Positions 8,261-47,391 of a stretch of 64,000 nt of DNA are shown piece by piece. The notes under the pieces are model-generated. The model did no database searches. It saw nothing but the letters and a program-made list of their open reading frames with translations, and was not told the DNA's origin. How positions within the stretch are numbered: position 1 is the first letter of the stretch; each line of letters opens with the position of its first letter. The stretch is from Dyadobacter fermentans (GTDB taxonomy: Bacteria; Bacteroidota; Bacteroidia; Cytophagales; Spirosomataceae). Made by a program: the position numbers and the translations under genes. The stretch is taken from positions 254,063 through 318,062 of the forward strand of contig NZ_JAHXBN010000017.1 in NCBI RefSeq assembly GCF_019924045.1. The letters are read 5' to 3'.

Positions 8261-10012
8261 ATGTCTTCGAATTACGATAAATACCCCTTTATAGAAGTAA
8301 GCAAATCATCCGACAAGTGCTTTGTGGGCTGGGCCGGTATTTTTGGGGAGATAGTGCGCTTTGTTCAGGAAACAGGTCAGCCGAAGTGCGTGGTTTGCAT
8401 GGATGTGTACCACGGGGTCGATACCGGCCCGGTGCGCGAAGCAATCGGGCGGTATGTGCCTGCGGCCACGGTGATCCATACCGGCGGTGCGCTTAAAAGC
8501 GTATCCGGGATCGGGGCAATGGTGTACCCGTTTGTGACCGATGACCAGGTCTTCGGGAAAATGAATGACCTGGAAATGGTCGATTTTTTTGATACGGACG
8601 AGCTGGAACGAGTGCGCGGGCAAATTCGCGCCATCGAGTCGGGTATAGTGATCGTTTATGGCGAGGGTGCTTCGCTTTTTGCGGATGCCGACCTGCTTGT
8701 TTACGCCGATCTGGCGCGCTGGGAAATCCAGAAAAGAATGAAGCGCGGCGTAGTCGGTAATTTCGGAATGGACAACGCCGATGATCAGTTTGCATTGAAA
8801 TACAAGCAAGGCTATTTCCTCGATTGGCGGGTTTTTGATCGGCATAAACTCCTTTTCTTTGATAAAATAGATTTCTTCATTGATGCCTGTCAGGAGCACG
8901 AACCCAAAATGGTGGATGCGCAGCTTTACCAAAAAGGGCTCGATGAGGCTGTCAGGAGGCCATTCAGGGTTGTGCCGTTTTTCGATCCGGGACCGTGGGG
9001 CGGGCAATGGCTGAAAGAAGTCGCAGACCTGGATCGCGGAGAGGTTAACTATGCCTGGGGATTCGACTGTGTTCCGGAAGAAAACAGCCTGCTTTTCAAG
9101 TTTGGCGAATGCATTTTTGAACTGCCTTCGATCAACCTGGTGCTTACCCGGCCACGGCAATTGCTTGGGAAGCATGTTTACGGCCTTTTTGGAGCCGAGT
9201 TTCCGATCCGTTTCGACTTCCTCGACACCATGGATGGCGGTAATCTGAGCTTGCAGGTACACCCTACGAGGCAGTACATCAAGGAGCATTTTGGAATGGA
9301 TTACACCCAGGACGAAAGCTACTATTTTCTGGAAGCCGACGAGGACGCGTGCGTATACCTGGGTACGCGCAGGGGCGTGAAAGCGGCAGATATGATCGCT
9401 GACCTCGAAAAAGCCCAGGGCGGATTGGGGGATTTCGATGCGGAAAAGTATGTCAATAAGCTGCCGGTCAAAAAGCATGACCACATTCTGATTCCCGCAG
9501 GCACTATCCACTGTTCCGGCAAGAATGCGGTTGTCCTCGAAATTTCGGCTACTCCCTACATTTTTACTTTCAAATTATGGGACTGGGGAAGGCTGGGCCT
9601 CGACGGAAAGCCGCGTCCGATTAATATCGAGCACGGTAAAAACGTGATCGACTGGGGCAGGGACGAGGATTGGGTGAAAGAGAACCTCTTTAACAACGTC
9701 GAGCAGATTTCGGTAAATGGCCACTCGATGGAAGAATCGACCGGGTTGTTCAATACCCAGTTTATAGAAACCAGGAGGCACTGGTTCGACAGCAAAGTGA
9801 CTCATTATACCAATGGAAACCTGAATGTGGTGAATCTCGTGGAAGGTGACGAAGCCGTGGTAGAAAGCCCCGACGGCCTTTTTGAGCCCTATGTGATCCA
9901 TTATGCGGAGACGTTCATCGTGCCGGCAGATGTGCCGTCGTACACAATTACGCCATCGGGCAGGAGCACAGGGAAGAAATGTGCCACACTGAAAGCCTAC
10001 GTGAGAAAATAG
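8261..10012 (+). CDS. manA: Class I mannose-6-phosphate isomerase with extra N-terminal domain
   Basis: 583 residues, cytoplasmic. The C-terminal two thirds (about 220-583) is a type I phosphomannose isomerase. LSLQVHP gives Gln332 and His334, ESYYFL gives Glu352 and AGTIHCSG gives His417, corresponding to the zinc ligands of this cupin family. It should interconvert mannose-6-phosphate and fructose-6-phosphate. The first ~200 residues are not part of standard ManA (about 310-390 residues). They contain DDQVFGKM, GIVIVYGEGASLF, then DADLLVYADLARWEIQKRMKRG, which looks like the lid/Asp-Arg region of uridine-kinase-like enzymes without a P-loop. A similar segment occurs at the C-terminus of the ROK kinase at 19580. 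The start 2 bp after the previous stop fits tight co-transcription. Confidence 0.88.
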   Translation: MSSNYDKYPFIEVSKSSDKCFVGWAGIFGEIVRFVQETGQPKCVVCMDVYHGVDTGPVREAIGRYVPAATVIHTGGALKSVSGIGAMVYPFVTDDQVFGKMNDLEMVDFFDTDELERVRGQIRAIESGIVIVYGEGASLFADADLLVYADLARWEIQKRMKRGVVGNFGMDNADDQFALKYKQGYFLDWRVFDRHKLLFFDKIDFFIDACQEHEPKMVDAQLYQKGLDEAVRRPFRVVPFFDPGPWGGQWLKEVADLDRGEVNYAWGFDCVPEENSLLFKFGECIFELPSINLVLTRPRQLLGKHVYGLFGAEFPIRFDFLDTMDGGNLSLQVHPTRQYIKEHFGMDYTQDESYYFLEADEDACVYLGTRRGVKAADMIADLEKAQGGLGDFDAEKYVNKLPVKKHDHILIPAGTIHCSGKNAVVLEISATPYIFTFKLWDWGRLGLDGKPRPINIEHGKNVIDWGRDEDWVKENLFNNVEQISVNGHSMEESTGLFNTQFIETRRHWFDSKVTHYTNGNLNVVNLVEGDEAVVESPDGLFEPYVIHYAETFIVPADVPSYTITPSGRSTGKKCATLKAYVRK

Positions 10013-10035
10013 GGATTGGAATTTCGATTATCCAA

Positions 10036-12699
10036 ATGTTACAAAGAGCAAAATTATTGTTTCTGATGGCGCTGGCTTTGCCGGCGTCGGCCCAGAAGAA
10101 TGCGGCTGAACATCCGCAGGTTACGGATATCTGGTTGGTTTTCAAGACCCATTTTGACCTCGGTTTCACTGATTTGCCGGAAAACGTGTTTCAAAGGTAC
10201 CGGGGTGAAATGATGGATGGGGCGATGAAAATCATTGACGATAATGCGCAACTCCCGCCTGAAAAGCGCTTTACCTGGACGGTGCCGGGCTGGCCGCTTA
10301 GCGAGCAGATTCTGGGGCCATTGCAAACGCCCGACCGTAAGCAGAAAATCGAAAAGGCGATCCGGGAAGGCGCGATCGCCGTGCATGCCTATCCGTTCAC
10401 GACCCATACCGAATCGCTCGACTACGAAGATCTGGTCCGTGGGTTGGGATTTTCTTCAAAAGTAGCCCGGGCCTACGGATTACCGTTGCCCATCAGCGCC
10501 AAGTTGACGGACGTGCCCAGCCATTCGTGGGTGTTGCCGACGCTGCTGAACCGAGCGGGCGTTAAATTTCTTCAAATGGGCTGCAACCCGGCGAGCCAGT
10601 ACCCGCGGGTGCCGCCGCTGTTCTGGTGGGAAGGCGCGGATGGATCGAGGATATTGTGTCAGTACACAGCGCTTTATGGGTCGGAGATTAAGCCCGGGGC
10701 CGATTGGCCGTGCCGTAATTACCTGGGTATGATCATGACCAACGATAATGAGGGGCCTCCGTCAAAAGAGCACCTGGATGCTATTCTTCAAAAAATTGCA
10801 ACCGATCTGCCCGGTGTAAGGGTGCATTTGGGGACGTTGGACGATTTCGCCCGCGCCGTTTTGAAAGAGAATCCGGAACTTCCTGTTATCAAAGGGGATA
10901 TGCCCGATACGTGGATACACGGGATTATGGCCAACCCAAAGGAAACCGGGGTGGCAAGGAGAGTCCGGCCGATGGCTCCTGCGCTGGAAGGTTTGAATAC
11001 ACAAATGAAAATATGGCAATTGCCTGTCGCGTCTATTTCGGGTCAATTGGCAAAAGCTTATGAGCAAAGCCTTTTGTACGCCGAGCACACGTGGGGAATG
11101 AATGCGGAATACGGGCCACGGTACAGCTATGGCGAAGATTGGAAAAAATGGATGCGCGAAGCGGAGGCTGAACCCGTACCCGCTAATGGTGACTATTCTC
11201 AATTAAAGAATAGCTCGGCCCGCCGCCCGGAGACGGGTAGCAAGCGAAAATGGCTGCATTCTTATGACGAGAAACGGCAGTACATGATGAATGCAGCGCA
11301 GATTGTGGATGGCGAGCTGGCCCGTCATCTCGAATTGCTGGCGAAGTCGGTCGGTATGGAAGGGAAGCGGATGGTCGTGTACAACCCGTTGCCGTGGAAG
11401 CGGTCGGGGATGGTAGAAATACCCTGGAAAAAGGGGGCGTACTTCCTGGCCCGCGACGTGCCGGCATCGGGTTATATATCATTTTCGGAAAAGGAGATCG
11501 GGCAGGCTGCCCGTACTACAAGCACAGTTTCCGCATTTGAAACGCCGCATTTTAGGGTCGTTTTTGATCTGCAAAAAGGGGGGATTTCGTCACTCGTTGA
11601 TAAAAGGAGTGGTAAGGAGCTGATAGACAGCAGCCAGGGATACGTAGCCGGCCAGTTTCTGCATGAGCGATTCAGCAGCAATGAGGTAGGTGCGTGGTTT
11701 AACCGATACAGCCGGATCAAGGATGGCTGGGGGCTGAATGACCTCGGTAAACCCGGTATGGCCAATGCGGCGCAGGTCCCGTACCTGGCGGTAACCCCGC
11801 AAAACTGGCATATCGATATCACCGGGTCCGATGCGGCCGACATCGCTACATTGATCCCCACCGACACCCGGGGCCTGGGCAAAGGCTACAAGATCGTTTT
11901 CACATTTCCAAAGCACGAAGGTTATGTAGATGTGGAATGGTCTGTGGACTCCAAAACGCCGGAAAAGCATCCCGAAGGAGGCTGGCTGTGTTTCCCGCTC
12001 GCGGTGAAAGAGCCGGTTTTCACGGTGGGAAGGCTCGGAGGAATAATTGATCCATCGAAGGATATCATTGCAGGCACCAACAGGTACCTCATGGCGGTTA
12101 GCTCAGGCGTGGCCGTTACCGGGTCGGACCAATCGGGTGTGGGTCTCTCGCCGATCGATTCTCCATTGATCAGCCTGGGTGAACCGGGCTTGTGGAAATA
12201 TTCGGAGAAGGATGGGCCCCGGAAGGCTGCCGTGTTCGTCAATATCTACAATAATATGTGGAACACCAATTTTCCGCTGTGGCAGGATGGTTCGTGGGGT
12301 GAAAAAGTGAGGATTTGGGGAATCGACGGAAAAACGGAGACGAACCAGGCACTCGTACGCAATGCGTGGGAGGCACGGCTGCCCTTGCTTACCGGCGCAG
12401 CCGACGGTCCCAAAGGCCAGCTTTCCACCCGGCAGGAGGGATTGACTGTTTCAAGAAAAGGCACGCTGGTAACCGCTTTCGGTGATAACCCGGATGGAGC
12501 CGGAACGGTGCTGCGCCTGTGGGAGCAAGCAGGTGAGGCCGGGGATGTAACGGTTTCTTTTCCCGAAAAGTCAAAGTTTACAAAAGCCACTCCGGTCAAC
12601 CTTCGTGGAGAGGTGGCGGGGAAACCTGTTTCCGTGACGCGCGGTAAGCTCCGTTTCTCCCTCGGCGCGTACCAGCCTGCCAGCTTTTTGCTGGAATAA
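10036..12699 (+). CDS. Secreted GH38-like (alpha-mannosidase superfamily, DUF5054-like) hydrolase
   Basis: 887 residues from ATG 10036. The frame stays open upstream to 9979, but only this ATG puts the signal peptide (MLQRAKLLFLMALALPASAQ) at the N-terminus. The mature N-terminus carries KTHFDLGFTD (His39, Asp41), the H-x-D-x-G-[FWY]-T signature near the metal site of GH38/GH57-like barrels. The middle (WGMNAEYG, about 350-360) and the beta-rich C-terminal half (from about 460: MVVYNPLPWKRSG, FRVVFDLQKGGISSLVDKRSGKEL) match the GH38 C-terminal domain pattern. A role as exo-alpha-mannosidase or related glycosidase is inferred from family and from its place 23 bp after manA. The DUF5054 subgroup lacks a firmly known substrate to my knowledge. 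Confidence 0.8.
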   Translation: MLQRAKLLFLMALALPASAQKNAAEHPQVTDIWLVFKTHFDLGFTDLPENVFQRYRGEMMDGAMKIIDDNAQLPPEKRFTWTVPGWPLSEQILGPLQTPDRKQKIEKAIREGAIAVHAYPFTTHTESLDYEDLVRGLGFSSKVARAYGLPLPISAKLTDVPSHSWVLPTLLNRAGVKFLQMGCNPASQYPRVPPLFWWEGADGSRILCQYTALYGSEIKPGADWPCRNYLGMIMTNDNEGPPSKEHLDAILQKIATDLPGVRVHLGTLDDFARAVLKENPELPVIKGDMPDTWIHGIMANPKETGVARRVRPMAPALEGLNTQMKIWQLPVASISGQLAKAYEQSLLYAEHTWGMNAEYGPRYSYGEDWKKWMREAEAEPVPANGDYSQLKNSSARRPETGSKRKWLHSYDEKRQYMMNAAQIVDGELARHLELLAKSVGMEGKRMVVYNPLPWKRSGMVEIPWKKGAYFLARDVPASGYISFSEKEIGQAARTTSTVSAFETPHFRVVFDLQKGGISSLVDKRSGKELIDSSQGYVAGQFLHERFSSNEVGAWFNRYSRIKDGWGLNDLGKPGMANAAQVPYLAVTPQNWHIDITGSDAADIATLIPTDTRGLGKGYKIVFTFPKHEGYVDVEWSVDSKTPEKHPEGGWLCFPLAVKEPVFTVGRLGGIIDPSKDIIAGTNRYLMAVSSGVAVTGSDQSGVGLSPIDSPLISLGEPGLWKYSEKDGPRKAAVFVNIYNNMWNTNFPLWQDGSWGEKVRIWGIDGKTETNQALVRNAWEARLPLLTGAADGPKGQLSTRQEGLTVSRKGTLVTAFGDNPDGAGTVLRLWEQAGEAGDVTVSFPEKSKFTKATPVNLRGEVAGKPVSVTRGKLRFSLGAYQPASFLLE

Positions 12700-12767
12700 T
12701 GCCCCGTTGGTTGCGGGACTTTGATGGGTTCGTTTTGCTTATTATTTCCGGGCGTGGTCAAAATTGC

Positions 12768-12775
12768 TATTTTTG
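12768..12775 (+). promoter_or_regulatory. Possible -7 box of the gntR gene
   Basis: TATTTTTG fits TAnnTTTG and would give a leader of about 20 nt to ATG 12802. No TTTG lies at the usual 19-21 nt spacing, so support is partial. Confidence 0.35.
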
Positions 12776-12801
12776 CTTTTGTCTATCTGCAATCCGTCAA
12801 T

Positions 12802-13533
12802 ATGAAATTTAGTATCGATCACAAGAGTCCTGTTCCTTTGCATATCCAGGCAGAGAACCTATTACGCAACATGATCAACTCTCCGGAGCACCTGGATGGG
12901 AAGTTCTTGCCGAATGAGGTGGAGCTGGCAAAACGGTTGGCCATTTCCCGGTCGACCTTGCGCCAGGCGCTCAACAAGCTGGTATATGAAGGGCTGCTTA
13001 TCCGGAAAAAGGGAGTCGGTACGAAAGTGACGGAGCCGGTAATTAGTTCAAAATCAAAAAACTGGCTGAGTTTTACGCAGGAGATGAATGCGCGCGGAAT
13101 TATCGTCAAGAATTTCGAGCTGCATGTAACCTGGGTGACGCCCGACGAGAAAATCGCCAATTTTTTTGACATCGGTACCGACAAAAAGGTCCTGAAATTG
13201 GAGCGGCTCCGGGGTAAAGCCGAAGGACCGTTTGTGTATTTTATCTCCTATTTCCACCCAAGAGTAGGGCTTACAGGCGAGGAGGATTTCAAACGCCCAT
13301 TGTACGACATTCTCGAAAAAGACCATATGGTGATCGCTACGCTTTCCAAGGAAGAGGTGAGCGCGATCGCCGCCGATAAGTTCACCGCCGCCAAGCTGGA
13401 AGTTGAACCCGGAAGTCCCATTCTTTTTAGAAAACGTTTCGTGTTCGACCAGGGCGAACGGCCTATCGAATATAATATTGGCTATTACCGCGCCGACAGT
13501 TTCGTGTATACAGTTGAAAGCGTAAGGGAATAG
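12802..13533 (+). CDS. GntR-family transcriptional regulator, HutC/UTRA subfamily
   Basis: 243 residues from ATG 12802; the frame is open to a TTG at 12721, but homologous sequence begins MKFSIDHKSPVPLHIQAE. The N-terminal winged helix-turn-helix (about 8-80) has FLPNEVELAKRLAISRSTLRQAL and the wing KKGVGTKV, the classic GntR signature. The C-terminal UTRA ligand-binding domain (about 95-240) contains KVLKLERLRGKAEGPFVYF, the SPILFRKR segment and PIEYNIGYYRAD. UTRA regulators usually sense phosphorylated sugars or amino sugars. Encoded between the mannosidase-like gene and susC, it most likely represses this locus and responds to a sugar phosphate such as mannose-6-P (inference). Palindromes resembling HutC/TreR operators lie at 7008, 13817, 19351 and 19541. 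A terminator follows. Confidence 0.93.
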   Translation: MKFSIDHKSPVPLHIQAENLLRNMINSPEHLDGKFLPNEVELAKRLAISRSTLRQALNKLVYEGLLIRKKGVGTKVTEPVISSKSKNWLSFTQEMNARGIIVKNFELHVTWVTPDEKIANFFDIGTDKKVLKLERLRGKAEGPFVYFISYFHPRVGLTGEEDFKRPLYDILEKDHMVIATLSKEEVSAIAADKFTAAKLEVEPGSPILFRKRFVFDQGERPIEYNIGYYRADSFVYTVESVRE

Positions 13534-13560
13534 CCGGACATAATCTTTAAACCTACTCGG

Positions 13561-13605
13561 GAGAGCCGCAGGTCCGTACATGATCGGATAGGCGGCTCTC
13601 TTTTT
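13561..13605 (+). terminator. Rho-independent terminator after gntR
   Basis: Arms GAGAGCCGC (13561-13569) and GCGGCTCTC (13592-13600) enclose a loop that can form a smaller TCCG/CGGA stem. TTTTT follows at 13601-13605. Confidence 0.88.
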
Positions 13606-13793
13606 GTTTATCCATATCATTTCGGCTGGGCAACGGGCTATCATAAAAGGTCAAACGAGTATTAACCAGTCACAGTAATTGTACATACATTTATCGCCCT
13701 TTTGCGTATAGCTCAATGGGTTTCTTGTTTTTGTAGAAGCGTGTATACTTATAAAATTCATACAAAATCAATGAATTATTATTGTTGATATTA

Positions 13794-13825
13794 TTTGTAT
13801 GTTCGAATATATGTTTATATGTTTG
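13794..13825 (+). promoter_or_regulatory. Promoter of the susC-susD unit
   Basis: TTTG (13794-13797), 20-nt spacer, TATGTTTG (13818-13825), an exact match to the Bacteroidetes -33/-7 consensus. Start of transcription near 13832 would leave a leader of about 280 nt before the susC ATG at 14114. Confidence 0.7.
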
Positions 13826-13832
13826 TACATAT
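13817..13832. promoter_or_regulatory. Candidate GntR operator over the susC -7 box
   Basis: ATATGTTTGTACATAT has perfect arms ATATGT and ACATAT around TTGT. It covers the -7 box of the susC promoter and the expected start of transcription, a standard position for repression. The flanks hold more partial copies (TTTGTATGTT at 13794; TTGTACATACAT near 13679). Confidence 0.62.
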
Positions 13833-14113
13833 TAAAGTGCGATTACCGATAATATCATAACCGAATAACGTGAGCCTCGCTCCGAAGGCTACTGCATTGC
13901 TTTTGTTTCGGAAAAGGGCAAAGCAAAAGGCCGATAGGACTGCCTGGTGGAGCAATTGCGGCGTAATGGCCGTGTGCAATCTGTGCAGAATGCAGCGACG
14001 TTTACCTATTACCGTTATACATATCATCAGCAAACCCGGAAGAATTGACGATCATAACCCAGCAGGCTTCCCGGCCGGCAGGGAGGGACTTTATTAATTA
14101 AATCTTGCCTTTT
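13833..14113 (+). other. Long untranslated leader of susC, no gene recognised
   Basis: About 280 bp between the predicted transcription start and the susC ATG. A 75-codon frame (13870-14097) spans most of it. It is rich in Arg, Cys and Ala in no recognisable order, has no family resemblance, and is not supported as a gene. The stretch is less AT-rich than the promoter region upstream, which fits a structured leader, but I could not assign a known riboswitch class. Confidence 0.4.
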
Positions 14114-17100
14114 ATGAAACCAAAACTACTGACTGAAAATGGGCACGGTGCGTCGTGTACCTTGTGGGGGATTGCGTTGATGGGGTTTCTCGCTCCTATG
14201 ACGTGGGCGAATGCCGGTCCGCTCAGTCGCGCCCCGGGCGGGCGTCTGCCAGGCGTACCAACGTCCGGCATTGCCACACATGTAGCACACCCAACCCGGG
14301 CCGAACGAGCCGTTTCCGGAAAGGTTACGGATGAAAACAATGCCGGAATTCCGGGCGTCAACATCCTGGAAAAGGGAACCAATAATGGTGTGGTATCCGA
14401 TCAGGATGGGAATTACTCCATCCGGGTGAAAGACGAAAACAGCGTGCTGGTTTTTTCCTACATCGGCTACACGAGCAAGGAAGTCAAGGTCGGCTCGCAG
14501 TCGGCGATCGCAGTGAAGCTGGATGTCTCGCCCCAGGAACTGAACGACGTGGTGGTGGTTGGCTACGGAACGCAGAAACGGTCGGAACTGACCAATGCCG
14601 TTGTGCAGACAACCGGTGCGGAGATCAAGAAATCCAATGCGGTGTCACTGTCCAACTCGCTCGCGGGCCGCATGGCCGGGGTGTATGTGACGCAACGGAG
14701 CGCTGCGCCGGGTTTCGACGATTCACAGATCCTCGTGCGGGGCGCCGGTACGTATCGCAATACTTCGGCGCTGATCGTAATCGACGGGGTGGCTAATGCC
14801 GATCCCGACGGCTTGAACCGCCTCGATCCCAATGATATCGAATCTATTTCCGTCTTGAAAGACGCTTCTGCGGCTATTTACGGCGCGCAATCGGCGGGAG
14901 GGGTTATTCTTGTTACTACCAAAAGAGGTACAACCGGAAAGCCTGCATTCGACTTTTCTACCACGCAATCATGGCAATCGCCGACGATGAAAGTGAAGTC
15001 GGCCGATGCATTCCAGTATATGAAGGTGCTGAACGACAGAAGAGCGCTGGAAGGAACGCCGCCGGACTTTCCCGATGCATTGGTAGAGGCATTCAGAACA
15101 GGCCAGCGCCGGCCGGAAAACTGGTGGAATGCCCTTATTGGCCCGCCGGTGCGGCAAACACGCTACTCGCTCACCATGCGGGGAGGTACCGACCGAGTGA
15201 GGTATTTCCTGTCGTTGGGTACGGCTTCGCAAGGCGGTATCCTGCGTGGTGATACCAAGTCGAAGCTGAGACAATACAACGTAAGGAGTAACATCGACGT
15301 AACGGTAACCAAAGATTTTGAGGTAGGTCTCGATCTTTCAGTTCGTGAAAAATATACCCAGACACCGCAGGGTGGCGCCGGTGGGGAAGTGGGTGCGCTT
15401 GCAAGCACAAGCCCGTTGCAGGAAGCCTATATCGGTGGGGATTACCGCTATCCCGGTGAAGGATGGTCGCATTTGAACCCGGCCGCGCGCCTGCAAAGCC
15501 CCGGCTACCGCAGATACAAGGCCGACGTGGCCAGCGGAACGCTGCGGGCCAAGTACAGCATTCCGTTCGTGAAAGGATTGGCGCTGGACGGTTACCTGTC
15601 GCTGGTTAAAACGGTGGATTACAATAAGCAGTTTAACTACGTATGGCCCTATTATGAGCGTGCTCCGGATGGATCGATTGTGAAAAAGCAATCGAGAACG
15701 GTGGAGGATATTGGTCTGCGGGAGGATTTTAAACAAAGCCTGCGTACCACCGGAAACGTGAAGCTCTCATATGCCACTACGTTTGCACGAGACCATAAAA
15801 TAAATGCATTTGTGGCCTATGAGCAGATGAGTTACAACGACAACCTGTTCTGGGCGCAGCGCCTCGGCTACGATTCGCCGCTCATCGACCAGCTTTTTGC
15901 CGGAAGTACCAACCGGGCGAACTGGAACAATGACGGAACAGCTACCGAATCGGGCCGCCAGAACTTTTTCGGACGCGTGAGCTACGACTTCAAGGAAAAA
16001 TACCTTTTTGGTTTCAGTGCGAGGTATGACGGTTCGCCGATTTTCCCGAAAGAAACCCGGTTTGGATTTTTCCCGCAAGTATCTGCCGGCTGGGTGATCA
16101 GTAATGAGGCCTTCATTCCGAAGAATATCATCAGTAATCTGAAACTGAGAGCATCCTGGGGGCGACTGGGTAACGACCGGGTAAATCCGTTCCAGTACAT
16201 CGCTGCCTATGGCTATGACGCCGGTTGGGTAGTGAATGGGGTGGATGCCCGCGGGATTGCCGTGAAGTCGACACCGAACCCGAATATCACGTGGGAAGTG
16301 AGCGAAAAGACCGATTTGGGTCTGGAAGCGGCATTTTTGAATAACCGCCTGACGTTCGAGGCCGATATTTTCAAAAACAAAACTTCCAATATTCTCGGCA
16401 GAAGGCAGGCTTCGATTCCCAGCTACACCGGTTTGATCCTGCCGGATGAGAACATTGGTAAGATGAACAGCCAGGGTATCGAATTGCAGGCGGGCTACCG
16501 GCACAACTTCTCGAATCTCACGCTGCGTATCAACGGAAATATCTCATATAACAAAAATGAGATTGTCTATTTCGATGAAACCCCTCAGGCCGAGCCTTAT
16601 CAAAAGCTGGAAGGGCAGCCGTTCGGCTCGCGCCTGGTTTACAAGGCCATCGGCATCTACCGGACGCAGCAGGATCTGGACAACAGCGTGAAATATCCGG
16701 GCGCGACTTTGGGCGGGCTGATTTTTGCCGACCTGAACAACGACGGTAAAATCGACAGCAACGACCGTTACATGTTCAATACCACTAATAATACCGATGC
16801 TACCACCGGGGTTACGACCATTTTCCCAAGTACACAATATGGTGTGAGCGTAGGATTGAACTACAAAGACTTCGATCTCACGATGTTGTTGCAAGGCCAA
16901 AGTGGCGCCAAGTTCCGTTTGAGCACAGGATTCAACTCCGGTGCGGGAGGTAATGGTCTGGAATACGTAGCGTTGAACAGCTATTCCAAGGAGAATGTAA
17001 ATGCGGAGTTGCCGATGATCGCTCCGACAGGTCTTGCCAATTCGGACAGCGACTTCTATTACCATAAGGCGACCTGGATGCGCATGAAAAACATGCAGCT

Positions 17101-17299
17101 GGGTTATACGCTTCCCAAAAGCCTGCTTTCGAAAGCAAGGATTACCGCTCTGCGGATCTACGTTTCAGGGGATAATGCATTCATGCTCTTCAATTCGCTT
17201 AAAAAGTATGGCAATGGTGACCCCGAATTCCTAAGCGGAAACGGTGGTGCGTATCCTAATATGAAGACCCTGAGCTTCGGCCTCAATCTTACTTTCTAA
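14114..17299 (+). CDS. SusC/RagA-family TonB-dependent outer-membrane glycan importer
   Basis: 1061 residues from ATG 14114 (a TTG three codons earlier is less likely). An N-terminal signal region (about 1-35) is followed by a carboxypeptidase-regulatory-like domain (about 65-145; AVSGKVTDENNAGIPGVNI). The SusC plug (about 150-270) opens with VVVVGYGTQKRSELTNAV and includes LNRLDPNDIESISVLKDASAAIYGAQSAGGVI. The barrel ends in LSFGLNLTF. SusC proteins form the outer-membrane channel beneath a SusD lid and import oligosaccharides using TonB energy. susD follows after 12 bp. Context (mannosidase-like enzyme, manA, sugar kinase) suggests mannosyl oligosaccharides as ligand, which is inference. 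The unit has a good promoter with an overlapping operator candidate. Confidence 0.95.
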   Translation: MKPKLLTENGHGASCTLWGIALMGFLAPMTWANAGPLSRAPGGRLPGVPTSGIATHVAHPTRAERAVSGKVTDENNAGIPGVNILEKGTNNGVVSDQDGNYSIRVKDENSVLVFSYIGYTSKEVKVGSQSAIAVKLDVSPQELNDVVVVGYGTQKRSELTNAVVQTTGAEIKKSNAVSLSNSLAGRMAGVYVTQRSAAPGFDDSQILVRGAGTYRNTSALIVIDGVANADPDGLNRLDPNDIESISVLKDASAAIYGAQSAGGVILVTTKRGTTGKPAFDFSTTQSWQSPTMKVKSADAFQYMKVLNDRRALEGTPPDFPDALVEAFRTGQRRPENWWNALIGPPVRQTRYSLTMRGGTDRVRYFLSLGTASQGGILRGDTKSKLRQYNVRSNIDVTVTKDFEVGLDLSVREKYTQTPQGGAGGEVGALASTSPLQEAYIGGDYRYPGEGWSHLNPAARLQSPGYRRYKADVASGTLRAKYSIPFVKGLALDGYLSLVKTVDYNKQFNYVWPYYERAPDGSIVKKQSRTVEDIGLREDFKQSLRTTGNVKLSYATTFARDHKINAFVAYEQMSYNDNLFWAQRLGYDSPLIDQLFAGSTNRANWNNDGTATESGRQNFFGRVSYDFKEKYLFGFSARYDGSPIFPKETRFGFFPQVSAGWVISNEAFIPKNIISNLKLRASWGRLGNDRVNPFQYIAAYGYDAGWVVNGVDARGIAVKSTPNPNITWEVSEKTDLGLEAAFLNNRLTFEADIFKNKTSNILGRRQASIPSYTGLILPDENIGKMNSQGIELQAGYRHNFSNLTLRINGNISYNKNEIVYFDETPQAEPYQKLEGQPFGSRLVYKAIGIYRTQQDLDNSVKYPGATLGGLIFADLNNDGKIDSNDRYMFNTTNNTDATTGVTTIFPSTQYGVSVGLNYKDFDLTMLLQGQSGAKFRLSTGFNSGAGGNGLEYVALNSYSKENVNAELPMIAPTGLANSDSDFYYHKATWMRMKNMQLGYTLPKSLLSKARITALRIYVSGDNAFMLFNSLKKYGNGDPEFLSGNGGAYPNMKTLSFGLNLTF

Positions 17300-17311
17300 T
17301 TCAGATAACCT

Positions 17312-19168
17312 ATGAAATATTTAGTTATAAAAAATCAGGTAATGAAGCGGGCATTAACGATGTCGGTCGTCGGCATCATTGCCGCGGCTACTTCCTGTAA
17401 CGTGCTCGACAAGAAGCCGCTGGACGCGATATCGGATGAGGCGGTATTTAATGATGCGGTTTTTCTTCAGAACTATGTGTACAATATCTATAACGGGATC
17501 AAGCCGCCCTGGGCGCCTGGTACCGGCGGCTATGATGCGCTGACGGACATTGCAGTGAACCAACCCGAAACCCATGAGCGCTCGGCAGGTATCCGCAACT
17601 ACATTGAAGGAAATATGACCGCGGACAATGTTTCGGATCTGGCCGCGATGCAAGATGGCACGCCGCTTTGGAATTATGAATACGGCTTTATCAGAAAGGC
17701 AAACGTATTTTTTGAGAATATCGAGAAATCGAGTATTCCCGCCGATAAACTGGATCCCATGAAGGGCGAAGTACATTTCCTGCGTGCGTGGATGTATTTC
17801 GAATTGATGCGAACATTTGGTGGCGTACCCATTATTACAAACAGTTTTCAGCTGAACTCGGAGAGTTTTGACGTACCCCGGAATACGTTCGATGAATGCG
17901 CGAAGTTTGTATTGGAAGAGTCGGATAAGGCTATCGGATTTTTGAATGGAGTGCCGGTCAATACCGGAAAGATCAGCAAAGCGGCAGCGATGGCGCTCAA
18001 GGCGAGGGTGCTGCTTTTTCTGGCAAGTCCGCTCAACAATCCTTCCAACGACATGGCCAAATGGAAAGCCGCCGAAACGGCTACCAAGGCTGTTCTCGAC
18101 CTGGGCTTTACGCTGCACCCGGAATATGCTGCGCTGTTTAAGAAGCCTTTGAAAACAGATGAAACCATCTTCGGGAAGTCGTTCACACCTGCTACCCGGA
18201 TACCCGGCTGGGGTTACAATTACGACTACTGGCCCAGCGGTTTCGATGCGCAGCAGCGGATCGTTCCGACGCAGAACTTCGTAAATATGTTCCAGATGAC
18301 CAACGGCGAATATCCCTACCTGGCCGACGGCGTGACGGTGAATGCGGCTTCGGGTTACGACCCACAGAAGCCGGAGAAAAACCGGGACCCAAGATTTTAT
18401 GACGCGGTGATTTATCCCGGTGCGGGACCGCTTAATATCGTAGACGGTTCGAAAAGTACCGAGCGCCTGTACGAATATTGGGAAGATGCCAATCCAAACC
18501 CAGACAATGCGCCTCCTTATATTAACCCTAACAAAGTAGACCCTAAAAACGGCCAGAACTTGTTTGACTTCGGCCGCGATTCGAAAACCTACTGGGTAAA
18601 AGGGCTCACGCCTTTCCACTGGCGGGTACAAACGGGTTACACTTTCAAAAAGACCGACGACTTTGTCGGCCCGCGCGCGAGCTTTGATTATGACTATAAC
18701 CAGGTGGTGGTGTTTATGAGGTTGACTGAGTTTTTCCTGAACTACGCCGAAATCGAAATGGCATTGGGCAACGAGGCAGTTGCAAGGGAATATATCAATA
18801 AGGTGAGAAAGCGGGCGTCGGTGCATATGCCCGATGTGAAAAGTACGGGTGCAGATCTGGTGCGGGTGTACCGGAACGAAAGGGCTATCGAGTTGCATTT
18901 GGAGGATTCCCGTTTCTTCGACCTTATGCGTTGGAAGGCGGCCCCCGGAAATGTGGATATAGCGGTGAGAGGGCTTACAAAAGTTACCATGGACTGGACA
19001 GGTGCTAAGCCGGGGGACGCTCTGGGAAAACTATCCTATACCTACGGCGTGATTCCCGAAGCCGAGGTACGGAAGCCCTGGAAGGGCGACCATTATTATC
19101 TTTTCCCAATCCCGAATACGGAGATCCGGAAAAGTAATGGCGCGCTTAAACAGAACCCGGGCTATTGA
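17312..19168 (+). CDS. SusD/RagB-family outer-membrane lipoprotein
   Basis: 618 residues. A lipoprotein signal ends in the lipobox ATSC (Cys29), so the protein is anchored by a lipid at that Cys. A second ATG at 17342 (MKRALTMSVVG...) would give a more usual signal length and may be the true start. SusD hallmarks are present: an N-terminal TPR-like segment, the DEAVFNDAVFLQNYVYNIYNGI stretch after the lipobox, KGEVHFLRAWMYFELMRTFGGVPI (about 150-172), and a C-terminal RNERAIELHLEDSRFFDLMRWK (about 515-536). It forms the lid of the preceding SusC channel and binds the glycan. A strong terminator lies 53 bp downstream, closing the susC-susD unit. Confidence 0.95.
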   Translation: MKYLVIKNQVMKRALTMSVVGIIAAATSCNVLDKKPLDAISDEAVFNDAVFLQNYVYNIYNGIKPPWAPGTGGYDALTDIAVNQPETHERSAGIRNYIEGNMTADNVSDLAAMQDGTPLWNYEYGFIRKANVFFENIEKSSIPADKLDPMKGEVHFLRAWMYFELMRTFGGVPIITNSFQLNSESFDVPRNTFDECAKFVLEESDKAIGFLNGVPVNTGKISKAAAMALKARVLLFLASPLNNPSNDMAKWKAAETATKAVLDLGFTLHPEYAALFKKPLKTDETIFGKSFTPATRIPGWGYNYDYWPSGFDAQQRIVPTQNFVNMFQMTNGEYPYLADGVTVNAASGYDPQKPEKNRDPRFYDAVIYPGAGPLNIVDGSKSTERLYEYWEDANPNPDNAPPYINPNKVDPKNGQNLFDFGRDSKTYWVKGLTPFHWRVQTGYTFKKTDDFVGPRASFDYDYNQVVVFMRLTEFFLNYAEIEMALGNEAVAREYINKVRKRASVHMPDVKSTGADLVRVYRNERAIELHLEDSRFFDLMRWKAAPGNVDIAVRGLTKVTMDWTGAKPGDALGKLSYTYGVIPEAEVRKPWKGDHYYLFPIPNTEIRKSNGALKQNPGY

Positions 19169-19220
19169 TCAGGCATAAATTCTCATAGAGTGAATTAGTA
19201 AATAGTTGAGGTATTTGGGA

Positions 19221-19251
19221 CCAATGGCGGGGTATACCCGCCATTGGCTTT
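19221..19251 (+). terminator. Rho-independent terminator after susD
   Basis: Arms CCAATGGCGGG (19221-19231) and CCCGCCATTGG (19237-19247), 5-nt loop, followed by CTTTTAT. Confidence 0.87.
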
Positions 19252-19349
19252 TATAGACGGTTCTCGTAAAAACTCCTGCTGGGCACCTGCGGAAAGGGGT
19301 CGCCAGCTGGCAGGAATGAGCCTTCCAGTATATGTATATTGTGAGTTTC

Positions 19350-19367
19350 GATATGTATATACATATC
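19350..19367. promoter_or_regulatory. 18-bp perfect palindrome, candidate GntR operator
   Basis: GATATGTATATACATATC is its own reverse complement; the core is ATATGT-ATAT-ACATAT. It lies about 160 bp before the ROK kinase promoter. A partial copy sits at 19330 (TATATGTATATTG). It may act with the site at 19541 through looping, or mark an unseen promoter. Apart from these sites, the terminator and the kinase promoter, the 411-bp gap 19169-19579 shows nothing else. Confidence 0.6.
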
Positions 19368-19526
19368 ATACATATTGGCTGAATTTCGACGAAAAATTTC
19401 TGTTTCTCTTAGAGCTTGTAGAACTAAAATACAAAACGATATCTGATGCAATTTTTGTAATTAATTTAAAATCAATTATTTATATTTATGATGGATTATT
19501 TTTGTATGTTGATTTAATGCAACTTT

Positions 19527-19557
19527 TTTGACTGTTAGTGATATGTTTGTATATTTG
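19527..19557 (+). promoter_or_regulatory. Promoter of the ROK kinase operon with overlapping operator
   Basis: TTTG (19527-19530), 19-nt spacer, TATATTTG (19550-19557), an exact -33/-7 match, with a leader of about 17 nt. An imperfect copy of the GntR operator (ATATGTTTGTATATTT, 19541-19556, 10 of 12 fixed positions) overlaps the spacer and the -7 box. A longer inverted repeat ATATGTT/AACATAT spans 19541-19564. Confidence 0.72.
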
Positions 19558-19579
19558 AACATATATTACAAAGTCCCTT

Positions 19580-20863
19580 ATGAAAGCGCCAAATGTAAGT
19601 CTGGGGTTGGATGTCGGAGGAAGTCATGTTACGGCCAGTGTCGTGGATATGTCTTTCACCGGAGAGCGGTCGCTTTCGATGGTGCGAAAGGAAATAGATA
19701 GCTTCGGCGCTGCCTCGGAGATTGTGGCTGCGATCGCCGATTGTATCACGGAGGCGCTCGCGGGCAGGGAGCCGGTTGCCGGAATCGGGATCGCATTCCC
19801 AGGGCCTTTCAATTATGCCAAAGGGGTTTGTACAGTCCTTCACGTAGGCGGGAAATTCGAGCGAATGTTCGGGCTTCACCTCGGGCAGGCGCTCAGAGAC
19901 GCTGCCGGTATGTCCGAAACCGCAATCCGGTTTTTCAATGATGCGCATTGCTTTGCCGTCGGTGCCTATATGCAAAACTCGCTGCAAAGTAAACGGACGG
20001 TTTTTCTCACACTCGGATCCGGCTTTGGATCGTCGTTCATGGAGAATGGCGAACTGTTAACACATCATATCACACTGCCCGCGTCGGGTGCATTCTACAA
20101 TGAGCCTTTTGGGGAATCCATTGCTGACGATTATTTCTCTACGCGCTGGTTTCACCAGGCCTATCAGCAGGCCACCGGGCAGAATATCCGAAATGTTCGT
20201 GAGCTGGCTGAAATGGATTCGGAAGTCTCGAAAAGCATATTCCATGAATTTGGTGTTAACCTGGGCGGGTTTCTGCTTCCATGGCTGAAAAACTTCGGGT
20301 GTGATGAGCTGGTGATTGGCGGGAATATCGCAAAAGCGGGCCATTTGTTTCTCAATGCATTAGAAAATGAATTGAAATCGCTTGATGGTAAAGTGCATGT
20401 GGTTTTTTGTGATGATACGGAAGCGTGTATCCTGACCGGCGCTGCCTGCCTGGGCAATCGGGAAGGGGAAGCCTCCGACGATGCTGCCGGGGCTCCGGTT
20501 CCTGCCTGTGACACCGATCTTTTGGTCGAACGGTTGCGTCATGAAAAAACGGCCGCGATCGATGGTTTGGAAGGGCATCCATGGGAAGTCGTCCGGCAGA
20601 AACTGCACGCCGCCCTGACGGCGGCGGGGCGGAAGGTACTTTGGTACGACATAGATGCCTGTCTTAAAAACCCGGCCGCCGATGAAAGACCAACCGGAAG
20701 CTTTGGAAACGTATTTTACGCATTAGATGATCAGAAAATGAGGGTGCTGCACCCTGATACTTCTGCTGACTTGTGTATTGTTTACGGCACCGGCGCTGCT
20801 TTGTGTGGTTGGGAGGGCGAGCTGGTGAACCTCGGTTCTGCCCTTGAAACGAAACCCGTTTGA
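19580..20863 (+). CDS. ROK-family sugar kinase with C-terminal extension
   Basis: 427 residues, cytoplasmic. The ROK fold occupies about residues 1-300: LGLDVGGSHVTASVVD is the ATP phosphate loop, GIGIAFPGPF the sugar region, FFNDAHCFAVGA supplies the likely catalytic Asp121, and TLGSGFGSSF the second glycine loop. The usual ROK zinc motif is not evident, as in several glucokinase-like members. The final ~115 residues are not part of a ROK kinase (usually about 300 residues). They read KTAAIDGLEGHPWEVVRQKL, later GSFGNVF and LCIVYGTGAALCGWEGELV, and resemble the N-terminal extra domain of the isomerase at 8261. It probably phosphorylates mannose or another hexose delivered by the next gene's permease. 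That assignment is inference from context. Confidence 0.85.
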   Translation: MKAPNVSLGLDVGGSHVTASVVDMSFTGERSLSMVRKEIDSFGAASEIVAAIADCITEALAGREPVAGIGIAFPGPFNYAKGVCTVLHVGGKFERMFGLHLGQALRDAAGMSETAIRFFNDAHCFAVGAYMQNSLQSKRTVFLTLGSGFGSSFMENGELLTHHITLPASGAFYNEPFGESIADDYFSTRWFHQAYQQATGQNIRNVRELAEMDSEVSKSIFHEFGVNLGGFLLPWLKNFGCDELVIGGNIAKAGHLFLNALENELKSLDGKVHVVFCDDTEACILTGAACLGNREGEASDDAAGAPVPACDTDLLVERLRHEKTAAIDGLEGHPWEVVRQKLHAALTAAGRKVLWYDIDACLKNPAADERPTGSFGNVFYALDDQKMRVLHPDTSADLCIVYGTGAALCGWEGELVNLGSALETKPV

Positions 20864-20909: not shown

Positions 20910-22319
20910 TTGCAAACACAACACGTAAAACACTTTACATTTCTCATTACGCTCATCGCGGCGTTGGGAGGCTTTTTGTTCGGGTTCGATATGGCCGTTG
21001 TGAGCGGGATCATCGAGCCGGTCAGAACGCAATATGGCTTGTCGGCTGCGGAAGAGGGACTGTTTGTTTCGTTTGCTTTGCTGGGCTGCATTATCGGGGT
21101 TGCGTTCTCGGGTTACCTGGCCGATAAAATAGGCCGGAAAAAAGTCCTGTTTGTAGCGGCCTTGCTTTTTTGGGTCAGTGCAATAGGTTTTTCATTTTCA
21201 AGTACTTACACTATTCTCATTATATTTCGCATCATGGCTGGCGCGGGGGTGGGAGTGGCTTCCAATGTGTCGCCGCTGTACATTTCGGAAATAGCGCCTG
21301 CGCCGAAACGCGGCGGGCTGGTTACGTTCTACCAACTGGCTATCACCATAGGTGTGCTGGCGGCGTACATCAGCAACTTATTCCTGCACAGGTATTCGCT
21401 CGCCCATGCGGGCACGGGAAGCGGCGTTTTGCATTGGCTGTTTGTGGAAGAGGTATGGCGCGGGATGTTTTTTGTAAGCGTAATCCCGGCGGCAGTGTTT
21501 TGTGTATTGCTCCTGACGGTGCCGGAAAGCCCGCGCTGGTTGGCCAAACACAACAGAAACGAAGAGGCACTCGGGATACTGGTCAAAATAAATGGGGAGG
21601 ATGAGGCCCGTACGGAATTCGGGGCAATAAAGGAAGCCTTCACACAAAGAGAGGGAGGCGTAAAGGAGTTAATGCAATATCCCTTACGAGGCTTGCTGGT
21701 AATGACGATGGTCCTCACCGCCCTTTCGCAATTCAGCGGAATCAACGGCGTGGTATTCTACGGCCCGACGATTCTCCGGTCCGCCGGCATCGTGATCGGC
21801 GACGTGCTGTTGTACCAGGTAATGCTTGGCCTGGCCAGCATGGTGTTCACGCTGATAGCCATCTGGAAGGTCGATACGCTGGGACGGAGGTCGTTGTACC
21901 TGATAGGTTCAGCCGGGGCGGCGGTATCGCTCGCATTAACCGGCCTGTGTTTCGCCTACGGCATTAATGGCTGGGGGATGCTGGTGTGCATCATGCTATT
22001 CCTGCTTTTTTTCGCCTTCTCGCTCGGGCCGTTGAAGTTTGTCATTGCTACGGAAGTATTTCCAAATCATATCAGGGGAACCGCATTGTCTATCTGTATT
22101 ATGACGATGTGGGTGTCGGACTGGATCGTAAACCTGCTCTTCCCGCTCATGCGCGACGGGCTGGGAGTGGCTAATACATTTTTCGTTTTTTCCTTCTTCT
22201 GCGTGTGCTCGTATGTGTACGCGAAGCGGAACCTGTTTGAAACGAAAGGAAAGCGGCTGGAAGAAATAGAACAGTTCCTGAGTTCGGAGACTGTGAAAGG
22301 CGAAGTAAAGATTGGTTGA
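20910..22319 (+). CDS. MFS sugar porter (sugar:H+ symporter family)
   Basis: 469 residues, twelve predicted membrane helices. Sugar-porter signatures: GGFLFGFDMAVVSG in helix 1, DKIGRKKVLF after helix 2, PESPRWL before the central loop, QFSGINGVVFYGPTI in helix 7, and DTLGRRSLYLIG in the second half. It imports a monosaccharide across the inner membrane. It follows the ROK kinase by 46 bp, so the sugar should be that kinase's substrate. The start is TTG at 20910: the frame has a stop at 20895 and no ATG before helix 1. Confidence 0.92.
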   Translation: MQTQHVKHFTFLITLIAALGGFLFGFDMAVVSGIIEPVRTQYGLSAAEEGLFVSFALLGCIIGVAFSGYLADKIGRKKVLFVAALLFWVSAIGFSFSSTYTILIIFRIMAGAGVGVASNVSPLYISEIAPAPKRGGLVTFYQLAITIGVLAAYISNLFLHRYSLAHAGTGSGVLHWLFVEEVWRGMFFVSVIPAAVFCVLLLTVPESPRWLAKHNRNEEALGILVKINGEDEARTEFGAIKEAFTQREGGVKELMQYPLRGLLVMTMVLTALSQFSGINGVVFYGPTILRSAGIVIGDVLLYQVMLGLASMVFTLIAIWKVDTLGRRSLYLIGSAGAAVSLALTGLCFAYGINGWGMLVCIMLFLLFFAFSLGPLKFVIATEVFPNHIRGTALSICIMTMWVSDWIVNLLFPLMRDGLGVANTFFVFSFFCVCSYVYAKRNLFETKGKRLEEIEQFLSSETVKGEVKIG

Positions 22320-22337
22320 TTGTGTAAAAAAATGCAA

Positions 22338-24659
22338 ATGAAAAAGAAGTTCTTGTATCTGGGGGTACTATCCGGCGCCGTTGCTTTTCTGGCGGTTTCT
22401 TGTTTCAAAAAGAACGGCGTGTTACAGTCTCAGTCGGGTAGTGAAGCTGTGAGTTATAATTTCGATATCCGGCCGATTTTGTCCGATAAATGTTTCGCAT
22501 GTCATGGTCCCGATTCGAAAAAGCGGGAGGCTGGTCTAAGGCTCGACTTGGCCGAAAGCGCCTATGCCAAGCTGAAAGACGGAAAAGGTGTGGCGATCTT
22601 CCCGGGCAAGCCGGAGCAGTCGGAGGTGTACCGGAGGATAACTTCGGCGGACCCGTCTTACCAAATGCCGACACCCGAATCGCACCTGGGTTTGCTGAAT
22701 GAAAGTGAAATAGGGCTGGTGAAGAAATGGATCGAGGAAGGTGCCAAATACGAGCGGCACTGGGCATTCACCACGCCGGTATTGCCGGCAGTGCCCGAGG
22801 TTTCGAAAGAAGACTGGCCCAAAAACGAAATAGACAATTTTGTGCTGCGTAAAATGGAAGGCGCCGGACTGACACCGAACGACGAAGCCGCTAAAAGCTA
22901 TTTGTTGAAAAGGGTGGCGCTGGACCTTACGGGCCTGCCACCGACCGTGGAAATGCAAAAGCAGTTCGAAGCCGACAAAAGCGACAAGGCGTACGAAAAA
23001 GTAGTGGACCAACTGTTAGCGCAGAAAACCTATGGCGAGAAAATGGCCGTTCACTGGTTGGATGTGGCGCGATATGCCGACTCGTACGGTTACCAGGACG
23101 ATGAAGTGCGTACCCAATGGCCGTGGCGCGACTGGCTGATCAATGCGTTCAACAAGAATATGAAGTACGACCAGTTCCTGATGTGGCAGATCGCGGGTGA
23201 TATGCTGCCCAATGCCAACAAGGAGCAGATACTGGCCACGGCATTTTTCAGAAACCATAAATACACCGAAGAGGGCGGCGTAATACCGGAAGAATACCGG
23301 ATCGAGTACAATATCGATAAAACGAAAACTTTTAGTACCGGTGTGCTGGGGCTCACCGTCGAATGCGCGCAATGCCATGACCACAAGTATGACCCTATTT
23401 CGCAGGAGGATTACTACCGGATGTTCGCATTCTTCAATAACTCCAAAGAGCTTGGATTTGAGGGGGATATTTCGCAAACGAAACCTGCCAAGAACCCGAT
23501 CATGACCATTTCGGACGAGGAGGCGAAGACATTGCTGTCGTTCATCAACCGGCCGGATACGAGCCGTCTGATGGTATCGGTTCTGGGCGACCTGGATACG
23601 CTGCGCCCGACGCACATTCTCAATCGGGGATCGTACGATGCGCCGGGTAGGGTGGTTACCGCCTCGGCATTGCCTGCGGTAATGCGTTTTGATACCCTCA
23701 AACTACCGCAAAACCGGTTGGGACTAGCCAAATGGACGACCAGCAAGAGCAATCCGCTCACGGCCCGGGTTTTCATTAATCAGATATGGCAGGAGTTTTT
23801 CGGAAGGGGCATCGTGAAAAGTACCGGGGATTTTGGCATGCAGGGCGACTTGCCTACCAATCCCGCATTGCTCGACTGGCTTGCGGTCGACTTCATGAAC
23901 CACGGTTGGGACATTAAAAGGCTCGTGAAACAGATCGTCACTTCGGCGACCTACCGGCAATCTGCCAAGGTTACCGACGAAAAACTGAAAGCCGACCCCG
24001 AAAACATCTACCTCTCGCGCGGCCCCCGCTACCGTCTGCCTGCGGAGCTCGTGCGCGACATGGTGCTCTCGACCAGCGGTTTGCTGAATCCCAAAATAGG
24101 AGGCCCCAGCGTAAAACCCTACCAGCCGAAAGGCATGTGGGAGGCGGCTACTTCGGGACGCGGCACCCTGCGCACCTACCAGCAGGACAAAGGTGATGCA
24201 TTGTACCGCAGAGGGATGTACACGTTCATCAAGCTCACCGTGCCGCCGCCGTCGATGATCATTTTCGATGCCAGCAACCGCGACCACTGCGAGGTGAAAC
24301 GTTCCAAAACCAATACACCTTTGCAAGCGCTGGTGATGCTCAACGACCCGACCGTGCTCGAAGCCTCGCGCGTGTTCGCCGAGCGCCTGGTCGCGAAGTC
24401 GACCGACATCGAGAGTAATATCCGTTCGTCGTTCCAGGCGATCGTCTGCCGCCAGCCGACCGATAAGGAAGTAGAGCTGCTCAAAAAATATTACAATGAA
24501 GAAGCTACCATGTTCTCGAAACAAAAAGACAATGCCGCGAAAGTCTTGAATGTAGGTGAATTCCCCCACGAGGCCAAAGCCGACAAGGTACGTGCAGCAG
24601 CATTGATGCGCGTGATCAACACCCTGTATAACATGGAGGAGACGATTACGAAGAGTTGA
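22338..24659 (+). CDS. PSCyt1/DUF1549/DUF1553 cytochrome-type lipoprotein
   Basis: About 773 residues from ATG 22338 (ATG 22332 or TTG 22320 also possible). A lipoprotein signal ends in LAVSC. The planctomycete cytochrome C domain (PSCyt1) follows with a haem motif CFACH (Cys52, Cys55, His56), then DUF1549/PSCyt2 (about 150-350; LLKRVALDLTGLPPT) with a second CAQCH (Cys343, Cys346, His347), and DUF1553/PSD1 (about 460-740; VFINQIWQEFFGRGIVKSTGDFG, YRLPAELVRDMVL). These proteins are abundant in Planctomycetes and found in some Bacteroidetes beside DUF1501 genes; their biochemical role is not settled, though an extracytoplasmic redox or glycan-linked role is often suggested. Here it follows the sugar permease by 18 bp. 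Confidence 0.88.
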   Translation: MKKKFLYLGVLSGAVAFLAVSCFKKNGVLQSQSGSEAVSYNFDIRPILSDKCFACHGPDSKKREAGLRLDLAESAYAKLKDGKGVAIFPGKPEQSEVYRRITSADPSYQMPTPESHLGLLNESEIGLVKKWIEEGAKYERHWAFTTPVLPAVPEVSKEDWPKNEIDNFVLRKMEGAGLTPNDEAAKSYLLKRVALDLTGLPPTVEMQKQFEADKSDKAYEKVVDQLLAQKTYGEKMAVHWLDVARYADSYGYQDDEVRTQWPWRDWLINAFNKNMKYDQFLMWQIAGDMLPNANKEQILATAFFRNHKYTEEGGVIPEEYRIEYNIDKTKTFSTGVLGLTVECAQCHDHKYDPISQEDYYRMFAFFNNSKELGFEGDISQTKPAKNPIMTISDEEAKTLLSFINRPDTSRLMVSVLGDLDTLRPTHILNRGSYDAPGRVVTASALPAVMRFDTLKLPQNRLGLAKWTTSKSNPLTARVFINQIWQEFFGRGIVKSTGDFGMQGDLPTNPALLDWLAVDFMNHGWDIKRLVKQIVTSATYRQSAKVTDEKLKADPENIYLSRGPRYRLPAELVRDMVLSTSGLLNPKIGGPSVKPYQPKGMWEAATSGRGTLRTYQQDKGDALYRRGMYTFIKLTVPPPSMIIFDASNRDHCEVKRSKTNTPLQALVMLNDPTVLEASRVFAERLVAKSTDIESNIRSSFQAIVCRQPTDKEVELLKKYYNEEATMFSKQKDNAAKVLNVGEFPHEAKADKVRAAALMRVINTLYNMEETITKS

Positions 24660-24664
24660 AAAAT

Positions 24665-24836
24665 GGCTTTAGGCTATAAGCTATAAGCTATAAGCCTTAG
24701 GCTATAAGCTTATCTAGGCATACCACTTGCAGCCTAAAGCCTATTGCTTAAAGCCTACAGCCTATTGCCTAAGTCTACAATGAACAAAAAATCAAAACAA
24801 GAAGCTTACGGCCTAAGGCTTATAGCTTAAAGCAAT
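24665..24836. repeat. Intergenic array of 7-bp degenerate repeats
   Basis: About 170 bp made almost wholly of heptamers. GCTTTAG, GCTATAA (three in tandem), GCCTTAG, GCTATAA and GCTTATC fill the first third. AAGCCTA, TTGCTTA, AAGCCTA, CAGCCTA and TTGCCTA fill the middle. AAGCTTA, CGGCCTA, AGGCTTA, TAGCTTA and AAGC fill the end. The later units are close to reverse complements of the early ones, so the region can fold on itself. It fills the gap between the DUF1553 and DUF1501 genes and reaches within 6 bp of the next start codon. Confidence 0.85.
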
Positions 24837-24842
24837 AAAAAT

Positions 24843-30896: not shown

Positions 30897-30946
30897 AGCT
30901 GGGTAATGATTAATAAACACATATTCTGATAGGTAGAAACCTTTAT

Positions 30947-43375: not shown

Positions 43376-43456
43376 GATATCGTGTATTTGAAATGAAAGG
43401 GTGTTTTGGATTAAAACCATGCCGGAAGCATGGGAAGCGGATTCCGCGATTCACTT

Positions 43457-47153: not shown

Positions 47154-47391
47154 AGGCAGGTCTTTGGTTTGTGAATGTTGGCCGCTGGGCACAACTACCA
47201 TGCCAGTTCAAACTGTGGATATTCTTCCATGTCGCGGATTTCCGGGACCTCTTCATATACGTTGCGTTTGGAAGCGTTTCGCACGGTTTAAGCGCTTCTC
47301 ACCCGCCAAAGGCCTGATACACAAAAGTGCGCTTGTCGCCAATGGCATCGTTTTTGACAAGGCGCGGCCTGTTTCACATCAACGATTACAT

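Follow-up and report, generated by a model that had tools for sequence, protein, structure and literature searches.

Class I mannose-6-phosphate isomerases are known from solved structures such as 1qwr (Bacillus subtilis-type) and 1zx5. The Dyadobacter fermentans isomerase described here has a catalytic part which aligns with these enzymes, metal-site motifs included, but in contrast to them it carries an extra 240-residue pseudokinase in front. Its gene is located at 8261..10012 (+) in the window, that is, the whole stretch of 64,000 nucleotides that was analysed, and encodes 583 residues. About 240 of these precede the catalytic part (residues 244-583, 8990..10009, +), and the alignment with 1zx5 begins at residue 244. 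In the alignment with 1qwr (E 7.7e-11), QVHP, QDESYY and TIHCSG, which we take to be the metal-holding motifs of class I isomerases, stand opposite KVHP, KTECWY and TLHA. The protein scores 23.7 bits on TIGR00218, the manA equivalog, below the cut-off of 116.2, and is a member of a divergent subfamily outside this equivalog. Over residues 1-230 it is 95% identical to the isomerase of Dyadobacter sp. BE34.

The second enzyme of the locus is a ROK sugar kinase of 427 residues (19580..20863, +). Its ROK domain (residues 1-290, 19580..20449, +) matches PF00480 at residues 8-268, with 58.7 bits against a cut-off of 22.9. D11, G13, G14, N120 and D121 are invariant in the 66 aligned ROK domains; the DxGG is presumably the phosphate loop and the aspartate of the N-D pair the catalytic residue. 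The ROK kinases and repressors 5f7r, 3r8e, 3vgk and 3mcp leave the C-terminal tail of the kinase (residues 313-427, 20516..20860, +) unaligned. The window kinase differs from them in having this tail, a truncated form of the isomerase N-terminal domain, appended. Both genes lie where the initial annotation had placed them.

The presence nearby of a GntR/UTRA regulator (12799..13533, +), a SusD-like protein (17312..19168, +) and an MFS sugar transporter (20910..22319, +) fits a sugar utilisation locus, and the isomerase suggests that the sugar is mannose. A SusC-like receptor, named from its sequence, is encoded at 14105..17299 (+). The 906-residue protein at 9979-12699, whose first listed start overlaps the isomerase gene, has DUF5054 as its sole match and is presumably a GH38-like mannosidase. 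Directly behind the sugar locus, the interval 22320-28485 encodes a set of proteins named after planctomycetes (PSCyt1/PSCyt2/PSD1, DUF1501 and another PSCyt1-bearing protein). Elsewhere in the window, glycosyltransferases are clustered with a carbamoyltransferase (44455-48384), and three frames have no Pfam match at 1e-5: 28614-30920 (768 residues), 38638-39660 (340 residues) and 43430-44332 (300 residues).

The N-terminal domain of the isomerase (hereafter ND; residues 1-240, 8261..8980, +) is a P-loop nucleoside/pantothenate-kinase fold in which the Walker A loop has been erased, hence a pseudokinase. The pantothenate, nicotinamide riboside and uridine-cytidine kinases and phosphoribulokinase have a Walker A that ND lacks: GxxxxGK[ST] is matched in none of 249 NDs and none of 23 kinase tails, a count from which 104 of 353 sequences that could not be delimited were left out. 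ND is therefore classed by its fold and not as an active kinase. The first strand and the site of the lost P-loop correspond to residues 42-53 (CVVCMDVYHGVD, 8384..8419, +), the DDQVFG motif to 8540..8557 (+), the third strand, IVYGEGA, to residues 131-137 (8651..8671, +), and the fourth strand with a lid-like helix, YADLARWEIQKRMKR, to residues 148-162 (8702..8746, +). The third strand is common to ND and the kinase tail; the DDQVFG motif and the lid-like helix are absent from the tail. The initial annotation had reported that no P-loop is seen in either addition and that the isomerase has a stretch resembling nucleoside-kinase lids; both observations hold (D144, Y148, D150, R159 and R162 are present in the stretch), and the likeness to nucleoside kinases extends to the fold.

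Profile comparisons give little for ND. Against 22 PF00485-type sequences, hhalign returns E values of 0.1-0.54 (0.05-0.22 for reversed controls). Uridine-kinase-type profiles give no support, PRK09270 is matched in one of 46 NDs (E 0.07), and Pfam and NCBIfam scans of the same 46 return scattered weak matches (lowest E values 0.013 and 0.0066, neither seen in more than two members). The best E of the ND profile against PDB sequences is 0.53. The fold matches include 7eey, the N-terminal domain of fission-yeast Tad2, which is another enzyme with a kinase-like front domain.

ND is widespread. A search matched 377 proteins; several hundred isomerases bear the domain, which is complete in isomerases of many phyla. 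A protein search for ND outside isomerases gave 162 matches, of which 120 are listed, and these are mostly pieces of isomerases or fusions, judging from the 12 inspected. On two short contigs (P0191 and P0192), ND is joined to a GFO/IDH/MocA C-terminal domain; these may be assembly chimaeras or another fusion.

ND and the kinase tail are the same module by descent, as judged from sequence comparison. A BLASTP search of the two additions against each other finds IVYGxGAxL as the sole match (E 0.036). When 117 isomerase NDs and 23 kinase tails are compared profile to profile, the probability is 88% and the E is 3.2e-6 over 96 columns; ROK-domain controls give 0.14-0.32, and reversed profiles 0.11-0.22. 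This bears out the proposal that both enzymes carry one module. The link is far stronger through proteins described below in which a ROK kinase, ND and an isomerase are fused: the tail matches the fusion ND with an E of 6.8e-36 and the isomerase ND matches it with an E of 2.7e-51. When the tail is searched against 5.8 billion proteins, it has 18 matches. Of these, 16 are ROK kinases; the other two are the isomerase fragment P0138 and P0137, an isomerase of Pedobacter steynii (E 9.7e-15). P0137 is 39% identical to the tail and 38% to the window isomerase.

In the joint alignment, from which the fusions L014 and L016 were left out, the correspondences are the MDVYHG/IDGLEG strand, the WYDI strand, and IVYGxGA with the strand that follows. 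The tail IVYGTGA lies at kinase residues 400-406 (20777..20797, +), and the pattern [IV]VYGxGA is found in 23 of 23 tails. The motif order which had been proposed for both additions is thus confirmed for IVYGxGA and the strands but not for the FG segment. The isomerase DDxxFG stands opposite a gap in 23 of 23 tails, and the FG of the kinase (SFGNVF, residues 374-379, 20699..20716, +) occurs in only 4 of 17 aligned kinases, so that the resemblance is coincidental.

The tail is about half a domain, and not a second working copy of ND. Among 29 conserved ND positions that were audited, G134, G136 and A137 are kept in 23 of 23 tails and L146 and D150 in most, while the others are lost or missing. 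In the AlphaFold2 model of the kinase, the tail strands (324-328, 353-357, 398-403 and 414-417) follow the same order as in ND, and the pLDDT of these blocks is mostly 78-94, compared to 40-60 for residues 361-380. The best of the five models (mean pLDDT 83) stands well above the other four (68-71), and the predicted packing of the tail is therefore not to be trusted.

The four predicted strands are under purifying selection. In the three closest pairs of kinases (dS 0.5-0.9), the dN/dS of the tail is 0.17, 0.28 and 0.26, compared to 0.14, 0.17 and 0.10 for the ROK domain; in most other pairs dS is above 1 or undefined, which makes the ratio unreliable. The conserved blocks are IDG, WE, WYDI and DLCIVYGxGA, while residues 363-385 are, unlike the strands, loosely conserved. 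The conservation of these blocks goes far beyond what a neutral leftover would show, which leaves the tail room for a function.

The origin of the half-domain is indicated by proteins in which the two activities are fused. A first fusion, of 900 residues with the order ROK-ND-isomerase, was found in the same taxonomic order as the window. A scan of genome contigs gave 530 relatives, and the best 80 of these, a selection biased towards P0137, comprise 34 ROK-ND-isomerase proteins in one frame and 46 isomerases with no ROK domain in frame. A search of the phylum (29 of 395 genomes) added four more fusions among the 30 loci kept; the 901-residue frame L033 has no ROK match and was not counted. 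That the kinase and isomerase activities belong together, as the initial annotation had it, is borne out by their presence on one polypeptide in 34 of the best 80 loci. All 39 fusions retain D11, G13, G14, N120 and D121, and the 34 that were tested all retain the isomerase motifs, so both halves appear, from these residues, to be active. In the open-access literature, judged by titles and the beginning of abstracts, nothing was found on the fusions or on ND, which may be described elsewhere. In three of the best 80 loci, from Flammeovirga (L106, L114 and L116), ROK and ND-isomerase are encoded by two genes, with the ROK gene immediately upstream, an order which is possibly the arrangement that preceded fusion.

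The window kinase resembles the front of these proteins. Tail included, it aligns over its full length with the fusion of Pedobacter borealis (L085; 46% identity over 459 columns). The ROK domain and the tail are each matched in 34 of 34 fusions, with best identities of 57% and 44%, respectively. The Bacteroidota fusions, such as those of Pedobacter borealis, Flavobacterium and Chitinophaga, share with the window the ROK domain, the linker, the start of ND and the downstream MFS gene, but the window kinase lacks their isomerase part, DDxxFG motif, lid and C-terminal half of ND.

The neighbourhood is also conserved. An MFS relative (41-73% identity among the matches listed) lies on the same strand about 0.2 kb or less behind 32 of the 34 fusions, and a GntR relative is found within the fetched locus of 24. 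In Terrimonas pollutisoli (L054), the fusion is flanked by relatives of the regulator (71%), the MFS transporter (69%) and the product of the 9979-12699 gene (64%). The window isomerase is 39% identical to the isomerase part of the fusion and belongs to another clade. In the window, the cut directly follows the fourth strand, and there is a gap of 47 bases between the kinase stop and the MFS frame. As the protein ends at residue 427 and the MFS gene comes next, the window kinase is not itself a fusion but, very probably, a descendant of one.

In the tree of ROK domains, 17 kinases of the genus group (15 with the tail, two without) form one clade (100/99). It is nested in a 50-row clade (100/99) in which each of the remaining 33 rows is a fusion. 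This careful tree contains 54 of 66 rows, including 8 of 16 database kinases; seven of the eight distant standalone ROK proteins, two own-genome paralogues and three fusions were omitted. A quick tree of all 66 rows recovers the same 50-row clade with an SH-aLRT of 99. Several fusions sit on long branches. The branches nearest to the kinase group are weak (74/29 and 53/56), a lack of resolution which leaves some room for the reverse direction, in which the fusions would derive from an older ROK kinase with a short tail. The nesting of the kinases rests, however, on deeper branches (97/89 and 98/91) and on the AU test, which rejects a constraint keeping the 33 fusions apart from the kinase group (p 0.0108). 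Moreover, isomerases of many phyla have the complete domain of which the tail is a truncation, and the reverse direction is very improbable.

The tree of tails and NDs, based on residues other than those of the ROK tree, agrees with it: 13 of the 23 tails were used (L080 was left out), and they form one clade (100/99) within a group of 33 fusions and ten isomerases (100/97). The stem of the tail clade is long (0.7 changes per column), which is what a relaxation of constraint following the break of the fusion would produce. Because ND-bearing isomerase genes occur in the same locus, a ROK kinase of this genus might instead have captured a piece of its neighbour, with the likeness to the fusions arising by chance. 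Such an independent joining is hardly credible, as the separate trees place both the ROK domain and the tail inside the fusion group, the tail is closer to the fusion NDs than to the ND of the window isomerase, and the MFS gene downstream is the same as that of the fusions.

The ten isomerases in this group (L045-L049, L057, L062, L067, L068 and L070) have no ROK domain, and no ROK gene was found in their fetched flanks; they have lost the kinase half, the mirror image of the window. In the same tree L094 groups with Chitinophagaceae, although its contig bears the label Williamsia (Actinomycetota); it is probably mis-binned.

Thus, the position of the clade inside the fusions and the MFS gene shared with 32 of 34 of them identify the kinase as the front of a broken fusion. 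The window kinase very probably descends from a ROK-ND-isomerase protein that lost its isomerase end, the tail being the remnant.

This ROK kinase is present in 9 of 48 genomes of the genus, with the tail in seven. In the two others, the sister genomes G026 and G044, the ROK protein (72-73% identical) ends before the tail, the MFS gene is right behind, and no remnant of the tail was found in the frames read. Both are placed inside the tailed group, so the loss of the tail came later. The ND-bearing isomerase is found in 28 of the 48 genomes, including all nine with the kinase; in eight of these nine the two genes share a contig and lie about 17 kb or less apart. No complete fusion was found in any of the genus genomes, so the deletion itself has not been caught.

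These data also bear on the proposal of the initial annotation that the shared module is a docking or regulatory domain which brings the kinase and the isomerase together and passes on mannose-6-phosphate. Docking to the isomerase is the most interesting alternative and a possible one: the homology is real, 34 of the best 80 loci have both activities in a fusion, the core of the tail is under purifying selection, and the isomerase occurs in 9 of 9 genomes with the kinase compared to 19 of 39 without it, kinship being ignored in this comparison. However, the tail lacks most of the conserved ND residues and half of the fold, the two sister genomes retain the kinase and the isomerase without it, and the isomerase needs its ND whether or not such a kinase is present. 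A shared docking domain is consequently improbable, and the idea that the kinase carries an equivalent second regulatory domain is not supported. A related reading, which we consider improbable, is that the ND pseudokinase has retained the binding of a nucleotide or sugar phosphate and keeps the two enzymes together in one complex, and that the half-domain left after the fusion broke kept the old interface and pairs in trans with the isomerase ND, which preserves a split complex.

According to the preferred scenario, descent from a broken fusion, ND heads this class I isomerase subfamily, and in many Bacteroidota a ROK kinase is fused before it. The predicted activity of the fusion protein is phosphorylation of a sugar, probably mannose, followed by isomerisation of the product. 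A deletion in an ancestral member of the genus would have removed the isomerase end, so that what remained was the ROK domain followed by strands one to four of ND. As the genus has a separate isomerase from another clade, the fused one probably became redundant, a cause suggested by the ND-bearing isomerase in all nine genomes with the kinase and by the clade of the window isomerase. The tail today is most likely a folded structural remnant, on which the kinase came to depend for its stability or assembly in most of these species; it was later dropped in one branch.

The fusion and fission of bifunctional enzymes are known; an isomerase headed by a pseudokinase, and a kinase with half of one left as a relic, add a variant to this kind. 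An unannotated domain of several hundred isomerases gains a fold and a name, pseudokinase, and bifunctional kinase-isomerases are predicted in Bacteroidota. Gene fission has gone both ways, with the loss of the isomerase end in this genus and of the kinase end in the ten isomerases. This case is also a warning that a domain common to two enzymes of a pathway can be the relic of a fusion and not a docking device.
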